Of a stretch of 39,487 nucleotides of DNA, positions 1,200 to 8,027 are shown piece by piece (the first letter of the stretch is position 1; each line of letters opens with the position of its first letter). The DNA is taken from contig JAAZKG010000006.1 in assembly GCA_012799935.1 (NCBI GenBank), positions 1-39,487 on the forward strand, in the 5' to 3' direction. The notes under the pieces are model-generated. The model ran no database searches. It was given only the letters and a program-made list of their open reading frames with translations, and was not told the origin of the DNA. The translations under genes were made by a program, and so were the position numbers. The stretch comes from Erysipelotrichia bacterium (GTDB taxonomy: Bacteria > Bacillota_I > Bacilli_A > Erysipelotrichales > Erysipelotrichaceae).

Positions 1200-1835
1200 A
1201 TGGAAAAGATATATTTAAATATGATTGTTGATATGACCGATCCTAAATGTGATTTTATCAATACTGTTGATAAAGAAATTAAAAACTATGGGGCTATCGT
1301 TTATAACTATCAGTCTAATTCTTATCAATTCATTCGTAAGTTTTCACATATCGATTATAAAGCTGAGGTTTTACCTGATTTTATTAAAATTGAAAACTCT
1401 GATGCTTTACTTAATGGGTTAAATCTTTCTATTCATTATGAATTTGACCCAGAAACTGAAGAAGATGAAGAAAACCTTGATATTTGGTATAACGATATTT
1501 CTCAGATTGAATTGCCGGTTTACAATTATGATGACGATGGTGATATATATTTAGAAAAATATCTTCCAATAGATACCTCTGTCAGCAAACATACTCTTTG
1601 GTACTTGAGCAAGGATAGTTATGACTATATATTAGATATAGATTTATTAATGCTCACTCCAGTAATTAAAAACATTAATATTGCTAGAGAATTAATAAAA
1701 AAATATTGCGTTCATCCTTTTGAATTTAAATTTGATGAACACCATCAATTGCCTGATAATTTAGAAGGAGTTTATGGTCATCACCAACACGATAAAGATT
1801 GTCAATGCGATGACTGTCTGGATGATTTAGATTAA
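1200..1835 (+). CDS. Hypothetical acidic protein with His/Cys-rich C-terminal tail
   Basis: ORF with AAGGTG SD; C-terminus GHHQHDKDCQCDDCLDDLD; followed by a hairpin terminator. Confidence 0.6.
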   Translation: MEKIYLNMIVDMTDPKCDFINTVDKEIKNYGAIVYNYQSNSYQFIRKFSHIDYKAEVLPDFIKIENSDALLNGLNLSIHYEFDPETEEDEENLDIWYNDISQIELPVYNYDDDGDIYLEKYLPIDTSVSKHTLWYLSKDSYDYILDIDLLMLTPVIKNINIARELIKKYCVHPFEFKFDEHHQLPDNLEGVYGHHQHDKDCQCDDCLDDLD

Positions 1836-1851
1836 CAATCTTTTAACTGTA

Positions 1852-1875
1852 AAAAAGAACATTAAAGTTCTTTTT
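1852..1875 (+). terminator. Intrinsic terminator
   Basis: AAAAAGAAC attaaa GTTCTTTTT. Confidence 0.75.
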
Positions 1876-2017: not shown

Positions 2018-3463
2018 TCAACTCATTTTTCTTCTTTTAACAAGAGAAATAACTTCATTAAATGTTTCTCTTTGAAATACATAAACTAATAATACATAAA
2101 CAACTACACCAACGAAAACTTGCGCTAACAATAAAATGATTAAGTTTATATTGATATAGTTCATTGAAATAACAACAACACCCATTATCGATGCTAGAAC
2201 AAATGCTGGAAGCATATCTTTTATTTGCTGGCTGTAACTATAATCCAACAACTTTTTATTTGGAAAAATATTAACAAATGTCGCTACTACTGTTTGCATA
2301 GCCCCACCTAAAGCAATTGCAAATACTCCATGTTTAACTGCAAGCAAGAGAAATAAAATTCCACAACCTTTTTTAATAAACTCCATAATTAAAATGAGAT
2401 CACTTCTTCCCATGCTTTTAATAGCTTGAAGATTTGTTACCTGAATTGGTTCAAAACCACCTTGTATGCATGCTATCCATAAAAATGGTAAACAAGGGAG
2501 CCATTTTTCTGTTAAAACAATTAAAATAAGATTTTTAGAAACTGCAAGCAGTCCAATCATTATTGGCCAAATAATTATAGAAGAAATAGAAAGTGATTTA
2601 CTTACTAAGGTTTTCAATTCTTTCTTATCATCTTGTTTTTTTGACATTACCGGAAATAATACCGAATCAACTGTTACATTAACGTTAGTCACAAATATAC
2701 CAGGTATCTTATATCCCTGATTAAAAAAAGCCAAATCATTTGGAGTATAAAATTTTCCAATAACTAATCCCCTTAAATTCATATAAATAGAATGCAATAT
2801 TGAAGCAAATAATATCTTCCATCCATAGTTAAATAATGGTAATAAAACTTTGAATGAAAAATATAATTTTGGTCTCCAATCAATAGCAAACCATAGTACA
2901 ACGCTAGCTATGAAAGCATTAGTCAAATATTGAAAAACTAAAGCCAGAGGACCATACCCTGAAACTGCTAAATAAATTCCTAATGCCGCTGAAACAATAG
3001 TTCCTGTTACTGTTGAAAAGAAAAAAATCTTAAACAACATATTTTTTTGAACATAAGCTTGTTGAGTCAAACTAAATCCAGATATTGGTATTTTTAAGGC
3101 TAATAATCGCAAATAAAACCCAAGTTTACTTATTTCATAAAAGGCTTCAATTTTTGGAGCAAGCAAAAAGATGAATAAATATACAAAAAACGAAAAAACA
3201 ATATTAAAGAAAAATATTGTTGAATAATCTTCATCGGTCGGATTCTTTTTTTGTACCAAAGCAGATCCAAAACCTGTAGTAACAAAAACATTAGCTACAT
3301 CGATAAAAATTAATATTATCGCAACAACTCCAAAATCATGAGTAGTTAGTAATCTTGCTAAGATTAAAGAAACCACAAAAGAAACGCCTTGAGCGCTTAT
3401 TCTTTCCGCAAAACGCCAAAACATTCCAGATACAATTGTGTTTCCTTCATTCTTTTTATTCAT
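2018..3463 (-). CDS. Polysaccharide flippase, Wzx/TuaB-like (MOP superfamily)
   Basis: 481 aa multi-TM protein; N-terminus SGMFWRFAERISAQGVSFVVSLILARLLTTHDFGVVAI is typical of polysaccharide transporters. Confidence 0.9.
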   Translation of the reverse strand: MNKKNEGNTIVSGMFWRFAERISAQGVSFVVSLILARLLTTHDFGVVAIILIFIDVANVFVTTGFGSALVQKKNPTDEDYSTIFFFNIVFSFFVYLFIFLLAPKIEAFYEISKLGFYLRLLALKIPISGFSLTQQAYVQKNMLFKIFFFSTVTGTIVSAALGIYLAVSGYGPLALVFQYLTNAFIASVVLWFAIDWRPKLYFSFKVLLPLFNYGWKILFASILHSIYMNLRGLVIGKFYTPNDLAFFNQGYKIPGIFVTNVNVTVDSVLFPVMSKKQDDKKELKTLVSKSLSISSIIIWPIMIGLLAVSKNLILIVLTEKWLPCLPFLWIACIQGGFEPIQVTNLQAIKSMGRSDLILIMEFIKKGCGILFLLLAVKHGVFAIALGGAMQTVVATFVNIFPNKKLLDYSYSQQIKDMLPAFVLASIMGVVVISMNYININLIILLLAQVFVGVVVYVLLVYVFQRETFNEVISLVKRRKMS

Positions 3464-3473
3464 TTTTTATCAC

Positions 3474-4607
3474 CTATAAATGATAGTTATCTTTTAGATA
3501 TTCATATACTCGCTGAGTAAATAAATCTTCATATTTATGAAATCTTTTTTTTGCTTGTAATCTTATTTCTTTAGTCTTGTCGTTACCATTAGCGATATCT
3601 TCAATAAAATCAATTAGTTGTTCAAAATTATGAATATGTTGACCTACAATGTTTTTTTCAAAATCATCATATATAATATTATAGACATTTTTAAACTCAT
3701 CAATATCATTTATTGTTAGTCCTATTGGTTTATCTGTCAGTAAATAATCATAATAAATTGAAGAATAATCAGTAATTAAAGCATCTGTTGCTGATAGAAT
3801 TTGATACAACTTTATTTCTTTCTCTTTTAAATATTCATCATTGGCCAAATGTATATTTTTAATATCAATATCTTTTAGCAAAGAAGTGTTTTGAGCTGGA
3901 TGTAATCTAATTAAAAGAAGTACATTGTTTGTTAAAAGAATTTGTTCTAATTTTTTTAACTGTTCAACATCACTAACACAAGGCAGCCCAAACTCAGATA
4001 TTATATCTAAGTCAGCTGTTTTATATTGATGCTGACGATATGTTGGCATCCAAACAATAACTTTTTTTCCTTCAAACTGCTTCACTGCAATTTTTTGACA
4101 AATATAGTCATTTCTTGGTAGCCCCAAACTTAAAACATGCTTATCTTTAACCATACATTTTTTCATATAGTGTTCTCTAAATACATCAGAAGTTACCAAA
4201 ACACCATCAACTTCACCTAAATTTTTAGAATATTCAGCTGAATACTTAAGCGGCATGCCATGTCCCAAGTGGATACGAATTTGGCTGTTTCTTTTCTTGT
4301 AAATATAATCGTTACTATCAAATATATATTTTGCGGTATTTAATATATAAGTAATTTTAACTTTTTCAAAAAGACTAGCATTTCTCTTGTAATAATAGAC
4401 ATTATTTCCTTTAGGATAGTCATTAGAGTTAATTTCTGACAAAATCCAAACAATTTTATATTTTTCATCAACTTTTTTTTCAAGAAAATATTTAAATAAA
4501 ACTTCAGAACTATCACTTACATCAGGATAACTTTCAAAAATTATCGTATTAGTTAAAGGAAATCTGGAAAATATAGACTCAATTGCTTTCTTTATTAATT
4601 CTTTCAT
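3474..4607 (-). CDS. CDP-glycerol glycerophosphotransferase family protein (TagB/TagF-like)
   Basis: Motifs HLGHGMPLK, RLHPAQN and ATDALITDYSSIYYDYLLTDKPI; ATGA overlap with the upstream gene. Confidence 0.9.
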   Translation of the reverse strand: MKELIKKAIESIFSRFPLTNTIIFESYPDVSDSSEVLFKYFLEKKVDEKYKIVWILSEINSNDYPKGNNVYYYKRNASLFEKVKITYILNTAKYIFDSNDYIYKKRNSQIRIHLGHGMPLKYSAEYSKNLGEVDGVLVTSDVFREHYMKKCMVKDKHVLSLGLPRNDYICQKIAVKQFEGKKVIVWMPTYRQHQYKTADLDIISEFGLPCVSDVEQLKKLEQILLTNNVLLLIRLHPAQNTSLLKDIDIKNIHLANDEYLKEKEIKLYQILSATDALITDYSSIYYDYLLTDKPIGLTINDIDEFKNVYNIIYDDFEKNIVGQHIHNFEQLIDFIEDIANGNDKTKEIRLQAKKRFHKYEDLFTQRVYEYLKDNYHL

Positions 4608-5344
4608 CTTATTTTTCCTGTCTCTCTAACAACTATATTATTAAAAACTTCACCGACTTTTTCTTTTATTACTAAATCTGCCATTCCATCTTGAGATGTT
4701 GCTGACAAATTGATAAGCACCAAATATTTTCCATTAAAATAATTTACTAAACCCGCAGCTGGATAGACAATTAGAGATGTGCCAGCAATAACTAGACAAT
4801 CAGCTTTTCTAATTGTTGAAATTGCTCCATATAAAGTAGTATCATCCAATCCTTCTTCATATAAAACCACATCTGGCTTAACTATTGACCCACACTCACA
4901 AAGTGGTATTCCATCACTCTTAATAATATAATCTAAGTCATAAAACTTATGACAACTTGTACAATAGTTACGATGAATTGAACCATGTAATTCATAAACG
5001 TTTTTGCTTCCTGCTGCTTGATGCAAGCCATCTATATTTTGAGTTATCACTCCTAAAGATTTCCCTTTAGCTTCAAATTCTGCCATTTTTTTATGAGCCA
5101 TATTTGGTTTGGCATCAGGAAAAATCATTCTATCTTTATAAAAACGATAAAACTCCTGAGGGTTATGTTGGTAAAATGAGTGAGAAATTATACTTTCTGG
5201 AGAGTGCTTGTATTTTTGATTATATAAGCCATCAACACTTCGAAAATCAGGAATTCCACTTTCAGTTGAAACTCCTGCTCCGGTAAAAAATACAATTTTG
5301 TTAGATTCATCTAAAATCTTTTGAAGTGTTTCTATTTTATTCAT
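4604..5344 (-). CDS. cobB: NAD-dependent protein deacylase, Sir2 family (CobB-like)
   Basis: GAGVSTESGIPDFRS, TQNIDGLHQAAGS, ELHGS, CxxC...CxC zinc ligands, IAGTSLIVYPAA; start taken as MNKIET at 5344. Confidence 0.95.
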   Translation of the reverse strand: MNKIETLQKILDESNKIVFFTGAGVSTESGIPDFRSVDGLYNQKYKHSPESIISHSFYQHNPQEFYRFYKDRMIFPDAKPNMAHKKMAEFEAKGKSLGVITQNIDGLHQAAGSKNVYELHGSIHRNYCTSCHKFYDLDYIIKSDGIPLCECGSIVKPDVVLYEEGLDDTTLYGAISTIRKADCLVIAGTSLIVYPAAGLVNYFNGKYLVLINLSATSQDGMADLVIKEKVGEVFNNIVVRETGKIR

Positions 5345-5345
5345 C

Positions 5346-6422
5346 TTAATAAACCACCAATGCATCGATAGCATTTCTTTCGCCTGCTCCTTGGTATGAA
5401 ACTGGTGTATTTAACAATTTGCCATTTTCAACCATTGCTGAAGAACCACCACCATCAAGATTACAAGCATTATAAGCTCCATAGCGCATCATAATATCCA
5501 CTAAATCAGCAAAACTAGCTCCCATTGAACCTTCACCGCCTCTACCATTAATAACTACCATTAATACAATACCATCCTTTCTTTGTCCTATGCATGTTCT
5601 AGGATGAAGCCCTCCTCCACCATCACCAGTATAAGTAGAAGGTTGACCGTTTACTACTAAAAATGGTCCAAATTCAACCCCCCAGTACATCCCAGCTTCA
5701 ACAGCTCTAGTAGCAGTAGAATTCATTAACATCAAAATGCCCTCTTTATTCATACCAACAATTGGACCATTTTTACCTGAATCATAATAAACTTCGCCAT
5801 TAGCAATCAGACTATGTGCTGGCCATTTTTCATAAGTGACTTGATTTATAAAATAGCCACTAGCATTTGTAGCAACTATTGCTCCTGCTTCCTTGGCTAA
5901 TTGTGGTATTGTGTTTCCATATCTACTTTTTGATAGATATAAATTGATTCTTTTTGAATCATATATTACTGCCATATAGCCATTATATGAACCTTCATTT
6001 ATTCTAACTATTTTATATAAATCATTACCTTCATTTTTCTTTAAAACTGCTTCTTCATATTCATTGGCGTATACTACCTTATCTGAATAATCAACAAAAA
6101 CAATATCATCAATATTTGAACTCTCCTCAGCAGCTGTAATGGTATACTTGTCAGCAATCTCTTGAGCATATTCTTCCGAATATAGGACATAAGCCAAATA
6201 TTGATGCGAATTAGTAGATAAAGCTGTTAGAATAAATAACTCTCTTAACTTACCATATGGGCCATAAGCTAAAAAGAAACAAACTAATGCGCAAATATCC
6301 ACAAAAATTAAGCAATACGTATACCAATTTGGTTTTTTCTTTTTTCGACTTCTAATAAAGACTGTTTGAATTTGCTTATCTTCAAGATTTTTCATCACTT
6401 CTTGTTTATATTTTTCACTCAT
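5346..6422 (-). CDS. Phosphodiester glycosidase family protein (NAGPA/DUF2233-like), membrane-anchored
   Basis: N-terminal TM; VATNASGYF, HPRTCIGQRKDGIVLMVVINGRG, ACNLDGGGSSAMV motifs. Confidence 0.9.
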   Translation of the reverse strand: MSEKYKQEVMKNLEDKQIQTVFIRSRKKKKPNWYTYCLIFVDICALVCFFLAYGPYGKLRELFILTALSTNSHQYLAYVLYSEEYAQEIADKYTITAAEESSNIDDIVFVDYSDKVVYANEYEEAVLKKNEGNDLYKIVRINEGSYNGYMAVIYDSKRINLYLSKSRYGNTIPQLAKEAGAIVATNASGYFINQVTYEKWPAHSLIANGEVYYDSGKNGPIVGMNKEGILMLMNSTATRAVEAGMYWGVEFGPFLVVNGQPSTYTGDGGGGLHPRTCIGQRKDGIVLMVVINGRGGEGSMGASFADLVDIMMRYGAYNACNLDGGGSSAMVENGKLLNTPVSYQGAGERNAIDALVVY

Positions 6423-7788
6423 TACTAATAACCTCCAAAACAAATGGATTATCTTCAGTTCCTATTCCTGAAGTTATCATAACCTGGCCATTTAAACAAA
6501 TCACTGCTTTAACATTGGCGGTTTCATTGGTGTTAATGTATTTAATCAAATTTTCATTAATTATACAAACTAAATTATCAGATTGAGTGCCATTATTAGC
6601 CAGATAAATATTTTCGTTACCTGTTAAATGTTTGAAACTAATATTAGGTATTGCGACATAACACTCTATTTCATTATCATAACAACTTGCCCTATAATCA
6701 TATTCTCCAATATATGGGAAAGTTCCATATTTCCACTTTTTAATCACTAAATAATCTTCATAATTTGTTAGTTCATTTATAAATTCATTATTCAAATAAT
6801 GACCTAAACCACTTTTTAAATTTAAATAATTATGTGAACCAAATTTAATGGCATAATCTTGACCGTCTTTTTGAATTACACCAGACATAATAAGAATGAC
6901 ATTTCTATTCTCATCAATAGATTCTACTCGCCATTTTATACCAGCATATTGAATATAAGAACCAATAGGCGCATCAAGTGCTTTTTCAATTTCACTATTC
7001 AATAATATAAATGGATCTTCCTTAGTTCCATCACCACTTACGGCAGTAGTAGAACCACTTAATGTAAACACCGGTCTAACACCTATTGTTAGTGAATCAG
7101 AATAAGAAATACCGATAGCTCCTTCTTCGTTGATTAAGTAATATTTACCCTCGCCGTTTCTATTGCCTAGCCAAAAACTGGTTCCATTATTTAAATACGA
7201 ATTTTGCCCTCCAGCTGCTAAATATTCTTTTAAAGAAAGCAAACCGAATTTATTTAGATCTAAGGCTTCATTACAAATGTGATTTTCAAAGCTTTCTAAT
7301 TGACAAATACAACTTGAATTTTTAACTAAAAAACTTGAATTTTTAATTGTTTTCTCATAAATTCCTGTGTTTTCTAACTCTAATTTGTTTAACCAATGAC
7401 TAATAGAAGTATTGTTGAAAACATCTTTTTCAAATAAAGGCATTACAGTTATTGCTTCTTGAGCAATAATTTTAATATTATTATTAGCATCTATTGACAT
7501 AATGCGATATAAATTTCCTGAAACTGAGATGTAGTTATTATTAACATTTCCAACATAAGTATAGGTGCCATCTTCATTTTCCATTAGTCTATCTTTAGAA
7601 GAATAGTCTATTCTATCCACCAAAACTGTAGATAAATATGAATAGTTAACATTGTGGTAAATGATGAAAAGTTTCTTTTTAAAATAAATCAATCTGCCAA
7701 AATAAAAAGTTATAATACCTAAAATAATTATTGTGTTAATTATTTGGAATCTCTTTTCTTTTGTCATTTTGAATCTTTTTTTTGCCAT
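6415..7788 (-). CDS. Membrane-anchored extracellular protein with two DUF6273-like modules
   Basis: N-terminal TM; two copies of a W/Y-R-hxSID...-shxxWLN-like module ending GDGTKEDPFIL and GIGTEDNPFVL; IGVRPVFTLSG motif. Confidence 0.65.
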   Translation of the reverse strand: MAKKRFKMTKEKRFQIINTIIILGIITFYFGRLIYFKKKLFIIYHNVNYSYLSTVLVDRIDYSSKDRLMENEDGTYTYVGNVNNNYISVSGNLYRIMSIDANNNIKIIAQEAITVMPLFEKDVFNNTSISHWLNKLELENTGIYEKTIKNSSFLVKNSSCICQLESFENHICNEALDLNKFGLLSLKEYLAAGGQNSYLNNGTSFWLGNRNGEGKYYLINEEGAIGISYSDSLTIGVRPVFTLSGSTTAVSGDGTKEDPFILLNSEIEKALDAPIGSYIQYAGIKWRVESIDENRNVILIMSGVIQKDGQDYAIKFGSHNYLNLKSGLGHYLNNEFINELTNYEDYLVIKKWKYGTFPYIGEYDYRASCYDNEIECYVAIPNISFKHLTGNENIYLANNGTQSDNLVCIINENLIKYINTNETANVKAVICLNGQVMITSGIGTEDNPFVLEVISNE

Positions 7789-7830
7789 AATAAACATACC
7801 TTTATTTACCAAGAAATAATAACATAAATG

Positions 7831-7850
7831 AAAAAGCGTTTCCACTTTTT
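7831..7850 (-). terminator. Terminator-like hairpin in the 5' leader of the envelope cluster (candidate attenuator)
   Basis: Minus strand AAAAAGTG GAAA CGCTTTTT: 8-bp stem with one G.U, GAAA tetraloop, U-rich 3' side; about 43 nt upstream of the ATG at 7788. Confidence 0.55.
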
Positions 7851-7944
7851 AGGATATTTCACATTACATCCCATAGATTAGGATTTAATTTAATTTTTTC
7901 TTTTATATACTCCAAACGGATTATCAACTGAACTTTATATATCC

Positions 7945-7980: not shown

Positions 7981-8027
7981 AAAAAACAGCCTAAATCAAT
8001 TCAGGCTGTCTTAGATAGCTGTTTTTT
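7981..8027 (-). terminator. Intrinsic terminator of deoD
   Basis: Minus strand CAGCCT gaattgattt AGGCTG TTTTTT; alternative outer pairing AAAAAACAGC/GCTGTTTTTT. Confidence 0.8.

Follow-up and report, generated by a model that had tools for sequence, protein, structure and literature searches.

The five genes at positions 2018–7788 of the window (the whole 39,487-nt stretch of DNA that was analysed) are likely to form a composite locus: an old operon of a DUF6273-like gene, an NAGPA-type phosphodiester glycosidase gene and sir2, carrying a general deacetylase as a passenger, would later have been extended by a lineage-specific capsule cassette. Sir2 itself is probably carried along in the transcript as a passenger and not dedicated to the envelope. 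The window genome is an Erysipelotrichia-like MAG of 163 contigs that is 84% complete, and every gene function at the locus is assigned from family membership.

ORF calling gave five intact reading frames, all on the minus strand. In the direction of transcription these are the DUF6273-like gene (6415–7788), the NAGPA-type gene (5346–6422), sir2 (4604–5344, with an ATG start), a tagB-like gene of the CDP-glycerol:glycerophosphotransferase family (3474–4607) and a gene for a Wzx/MOP-type polysaccharide flippase (2018–3463). The first two genes overlap by 8 nt (6415/6422), a 1-nt gap separates the NAGPA-type gene from sir2 (5346/5344), the stop codon of sir2 and the start codon of tagB share an ATGA (4604–4607), and 10 nt lie between tagB and the flippase gene (3463/3474). 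The gene content, order, strand and junctions reported in an earlier, sequence-only reading of this DNA were all confirmed by the ORF calls and the sequence. Its flippase, TagB-like, Sir2 and NAGPA labels were upheld by above-cut-off matches to PF13440, PF04464, PF02146 and PF09992, respectively. The sequence-only reading had further described the locus as one functional five-gene cluster with an embedded sirtuin; comparison with related genomes does not support this, as tagB and the flippase gene are missing in all six congeners, where a different gene directly follows sir2.

This gene, o211, is a conserved gene on the plus strand of the window (1200–1835), convergent with the cluster. It lies directly behind sir2 in the six same-genus genomes G001–G006 (60–90% identity) and putatively marks the distal limit of the sir2 locus in its ancestral form. 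The sir2 gene itself is present in each of these genomes, with 72–90% identity. Four of them (G001, G002, G005 and G006) show the order DUF–NAGPA–sir2–o211 with similarly tight junctions. In G003 and G004 the NAGPA position is occupied by a stub (L066:6084-7349 and L067:13754-15610) that lacks the NAGPA domain and keeps the membrane-anchor region alone, behind a long Pro/Gln-rich leader. These two genomes have a complete DUF–NAGPA pair 7–8 kb away, followed by an acyltransferase gene instead of sir2.

A scan with the NAGPA alignment yielded 79 loci (L110–L188). At eight of them sir2 lies directly behind the NAGPA gene, with NAGPA identity down to 43%. Half of these eight are on Erysipelotrichaceae-type contigs outside the six congeners, and these four have a gene of nitroreductase size between sir2 and o211, shown to be a nitroreductase gene in L116. 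In the sir2 tree the NAGPA-linked genes share one part of the tree, with weak support for a single clade. Genes for Sir2 occur throughout the family and, outside the linked clade, lie beside housekeeping genes of no related function, among them those for ECF and PTS transporters, ClpB, NUDIX, MutY, PfkB, an SbcC-like ATPase and rubrerythrin. The distribution is compatible with one origin of the sir2–NAGPA linkage and later loss or erosion, and DUF–NAGPA–sir2 is, as far as gene order tells, an apparently old unit conserved within one clade. In a related genome the same HK–deoD–DUF–NAGPA locus (L121:7568-10983) has a gene resembling ROK-type sugar kinases, judged by its N-terminus, in the place where sir2 would be expected.

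The gene order is accompanied by a conserved upstream region. A block of roughly 60 nt in front of the DUF gene (7816–7876, minus strand) aligns in four genomes and has no second match within three mismatches in the window, where 0.04 would be expected. This putative promoter region contains the element CTATGGGATGTRATGTGAA and a promoter-like site (7844–7816), TGGAAA-N17-TATTAT, with a TG before the −10 hexamer. Promoter-like sites are no commoner across the region than expected by chance; therefore, the conserved block alone was used as evidence. From CTATGGGATGTRATGTGAA to AGTGGAAA the block contains TGGGA/TGTGA units at a spacing of roughly 10 nt, and we assume a resemblance of these units to MraZ-type direct repeats. 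A terminator-like hairpin lies farther upstream, between deoD and the DUF gene (8004–8020); it is listed on the plus strand in the terminator scan and forms a T-tailed hairpin on the minus strand too. Since the order is conserved, the junctions overlap or leave 1 nt and the upstream block is conserved, DUF, NAGPA and sir2 are supported as one transcription unit, and their predicted co-transcription is well supported. Of the tight junctions from which the earlier reading had deduced co-translation, DUF–NAGPA and NAGPA–sir2 are conserved in relatives, and sir2–tagB and tagB–flippase were found in the window genome alone.

The 3′ part of the cluster has a different history. Neither tagB nor the flippase gene is present between sir2 and o211 in any of the six congeners, and no close homologues of either were found elsewhere in these genomes. 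The distance from the sir2 stop to the o211 stop is 15–310 nt in relatives versus 2768 nt in the window. The two additional genes lie between the sir2 stop and a terminator-like hairpin, AAAAAGAACTTTAATGTTCTTTTTT (1851–1875, minus strand), identified by sequence comparison; its counterpart in G002 directly trails sir2. The terminator scan demands three G–C pairs and does not list this hairpin. The simplest explanation, in line also with a Sir2 C-terminal tail unlike those of the relatives, would be that a cassette of two genes entered at the end of sir2. As tagB and the flippase gene adjoin sir2 in the window genome alone, the ATGA junction is derived. Direct repeats flanking the insertion were not found, and the 182-nt spacer behind the flippase gene is no repeat element of the window genome. 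A second lineage-specific difference is seen at the contig edge beyond o211, where a DUF2971-like gene (205–1152) scores under the Pfam cut-off and weakly matches the PADLOC candidate PDC-S31; congeners have other genes at this site, for example FeoB in G002.

It is extremely unlikely that the sir2–tagB–flippase arrangement is an artefact of assembly or a mixture of strains in the MAG. Misassembly around the insert is possible in an 84% complete MAG, the genome is split into 163 contigs, and the insert is known from one genome; against this, both flanks are syntenic with the congeners within a single contig, and the ATGA junction would require a precise chance joining. The base composition of the insert also matches its surroundings, so that GC content provides no mark of foreign origin.

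The TagB-like protein scores 158.4 bits against PF04464 (cut-off 22.1) and falls far short of the TarF equivalog (37.8 bits, cut-off 550); therefore, it is regarded as a member of PF04464, and an identity with TarF is unsupported. The flippase contains a Polysacc_synt domain (PF13440, 308.1 bits, cut-off 23) and remains under the TuaB and PRK10459 equivalog cut-offs. A scan of genome contigs with the TagB protein detected no relatives. Within the class, relatives of TagB share 31–35% identity with it; for the flippase, the best match, in G008, has 36% identity. The class-level TagB relatives mostly adjoin Polysacc_synt flippase genes, together with glycosyltransferase-like and in some cases CTP_transf_like (cytidylyltransferase) genes, which gives the cassette the appearance of a piece of a capsule or EPS locus. 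No match to TagD (TIGR01518) was found in the 84% complete genome.

These relationships also bear on the opposite order of events, in which the five genes would be an old complete operon from which relatives repeatedly lost tagB and the flippase gene. In its favour, the DUF–NAGPA pair of L125 lies near a PF04464 gene, and other pairs lie near glycosyltransferase genes. However, neither the six congeners nor the linked loci of more distant relatives have tagB and the flippase gene, o211 comes next after sir2 in relatives, either at once or behind a nitroreductase gene, and the identity of TagB to its class relatives is just 31–35%. Loss in every congener is possible and less parsimonious than insertion, and we regard an old five-gene operon as very unlikely.

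The Sir2 protein matches PF02146 with 172.3 bits (cut-off 24) and NF001752 with 343.9 bits (cut-off 221), and its best match in the PDB is the Thermotoga maritima enzyme Sir2Tm (1yc5). H120 of the HG motif and the zinc-binding cysteines 128, 131, 149 and 151 are invariant in eight orthologues; the C-terminal tail is unlike that of every relative. By its sequence, Sir2 is predicted to be a standard Sir2Tm-like NAD-dependent deacetylase with no mark of specialisation. No second sirtuin was found in the window genome (a single match in the 84% complete MAG). A role in sirtuin-based anti-phage defence was rejected, as none of the five proteins matched in PADLOC and the Dsr1 score was 15.8 against 1400 bits.

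The sequence-only reading had proposed that the sirtuin could act on an acylated glycan precursor or regulate the polymerase. In such a model, the targets of Sir2 would be TagB, some other pathway enzyme in the cytosol or the precursor, and their deacylation would couple NAD status to the output of surface polymer. The tight DUF–NAGPA–sir2 junctions, the conservation of their order across the clade and the presence of a sole sirtuin in the genome speak for such a dedicated function. A precedent comes from Bacillus subtilis, where acetylation of K296 in the envelope regulator GlmR likely affects function (PMC13046274), so that deacetylation touching envelope synthesis is plausible. Several observations argue the other way. 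The congeners that have the Sir2 unit contain no TagB and no flippase, and in two of them sir2 persists beside an NAGPA-slot protein without the catalytic domain. Most DUF–NAGPA pairs are without sir2, and most sir2 genes are without NAGPA. By prediction, the DUF and NAGPA proteins have their domains outside the cell, beyond the reach of a cytosolic enzyme. To our knowledge, the targets of the sirtuin family are protein lysines and not sugars. As TagB most simply arrived later than Sir2, a dedicated action of Sir2, be its target TagB or a glycan precursor, finds little support, co-location being the sole positive evidence for an envelope sirtuin, and we consider it unlikely. The literature searched contained no precedent for a sirtuin in a teichoic acid operon. 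A conserved neighbourhood, which the sequence-only reading had suggested looking for, was recovered in part: the position of Sir2 next to NAGPA is kept within one clade, and its position next to TagB and the flippase is not.

The DUF protein has no Pfam match, PF19789 included; its paralogue matches PF19789 weakly, with 15.9 bits against a cut-off of 23.5. An AlphaFold model based on 39 aligned homologues (pLDDT 87.3) shows a single N-terminal helix of transmembrane length (residues 10–45) followed by two tandem domains, and the motif GxGTxxxPyvL closes each of the two repeats. In Foldseek the model best matches DUF6273 models of viral proteins and 9qa6, the structure of an IgA protease; together with the weak match of the paralogue, these matches favour the DUF6273-like label given earlier. 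Nine aligned DUF proteins showed too little conservation to serve for a scan. The protease in 9qa6 comes from Thomasclavelia ramosa and has DUF6273 as its N-terminal domain (PMC12402451), and DUF6273 has been described as C-type-lectin-like and as a part of phage receptor-binding proteins, the tentaclins (PMC10743442). We propose that the DUF protein crosses the membrane once and that its two modelled C-type-lectin-like domains would be located outside the cell and may bind glycans.

The NAGPA protein scores 129.6 bits against PF09992 (cut-off 25), has sequence matches to the solved NAGPA structures 6pku and 6ozd and carries an NLDGGGS motif that is invariant in seven homologues. On the basis of this domain and motif, the membrane-anchored protein would, like its family, cleave sugar-1-phosphodiester bonds, presumably in surface or environmental glycans. 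The DUF gene is present at 48 of the 79 NAGPA loci, mostly without sir2, and some of these pairs lie in EPS-type clusters with Alg14, GT28, GT2, CotH-VTC-DUF4956 and PF04464 genes (the last in L125). A predicted link of the pair to the envelope is supported, because homologous pairs occur in EPS/capsule-type clusters elsewhere. Among uncultured gut Bacilli, the DUF6273-like and NAGPA genes are widespread as a pair encoding membrane proteins, at times in the arrangement NAGPA–DUF–NAGPA. The literature searched for DUF6273 held no account of this pair, and that searched for NAGPA with teichoic acid held no precedent.

In our proposal, Sir2 is a cytosolic, NAD-dependent lysine deacetylase of the ordinary Sir2Tm type, whose gene became the last of the DUF–NAGPA unit, most simply once, and was then inherited in this place. 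It probably acts on general proteins of the cell and not on the products of the neighbouring genes. In the window lineage, a TagB-like polyol-phosphate transferase gene and a Wzx-type flippase gene would have entered behind the sir2 stop codon and ahead of the operon terminator, which would put both under transcription of the operon by presumed read-through. A counterpoint to the passenger reading is that the DUF–NAGPA–sir2 order survives divergence of NAGPA to 43–80% identity, which is more than expected for a purely neutral passenger. DUF6273, NAGPA and Sir2 could instead form a functional unit of one Erysipelotrichaceae clade, in which the turnover of surface glycans is co-expressed with an NAD-dependent deacetylase under the conserved 60-nt upstream element, which we judge quite improbable. 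If true, NAGPA would free sugar phosphates, the lectin-fold protein would bind these, and Sir2 would set cytosolic enzymes for the use of the freed, often acetylated, sugars. With Sir2 as a probable passenger, the locus brings out a widespread DUF6273–NAGPA pair and a sirtuin stably joined to it in one clade. It also illustrates how misleading a five-gene cluster with tight, overlapping junctions can be: the Sir2–TagB overlap, which had suggested co-translation, is a lineage-specific junction.

Compared with known systems, the tagB–flippase pair resembles the TagB/TarF and Wzx capsule/EPS clusters in placing a PF04464 gene beside that of an MOP flippase, and differs from them as an isolated two-gene pair with no TagD found and a score far below the TarF cut-off. 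The DUF protein matches in fold, by Foldseek, DUF6273 of the tentaclins (PMC10743442) and of the IgA protease 9qa6 (PMC12402451); unlike these, it has two tandem copies and a membrane anchor, is encoded in a bacterial operon and falls under the Pfam cut-off in sequence. The NAGPA protein has the C-terminal catalytic domain with NLDGGGS of the NAGPA/DUF2233 glycosidases (PF09992; 6pku, 3ohg, 6ozd) and is distinguished from known members by its N-terminal transmembrane anchor and its pairing with a DUF6273-like membrane protein. Sir2 agrees with the bacterial Sir2/CobB/SrtN deacetylases in its full-length domain, catalytic histidine, four zinc cysteines, GAGxS and TQNIDGLH, and its gene neighbourhood alone is out of the ordinary. 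The locus thus adds a modest further case to families already known, here combined in a clade-specific operon with an appended lineage-specific capsule cassette.
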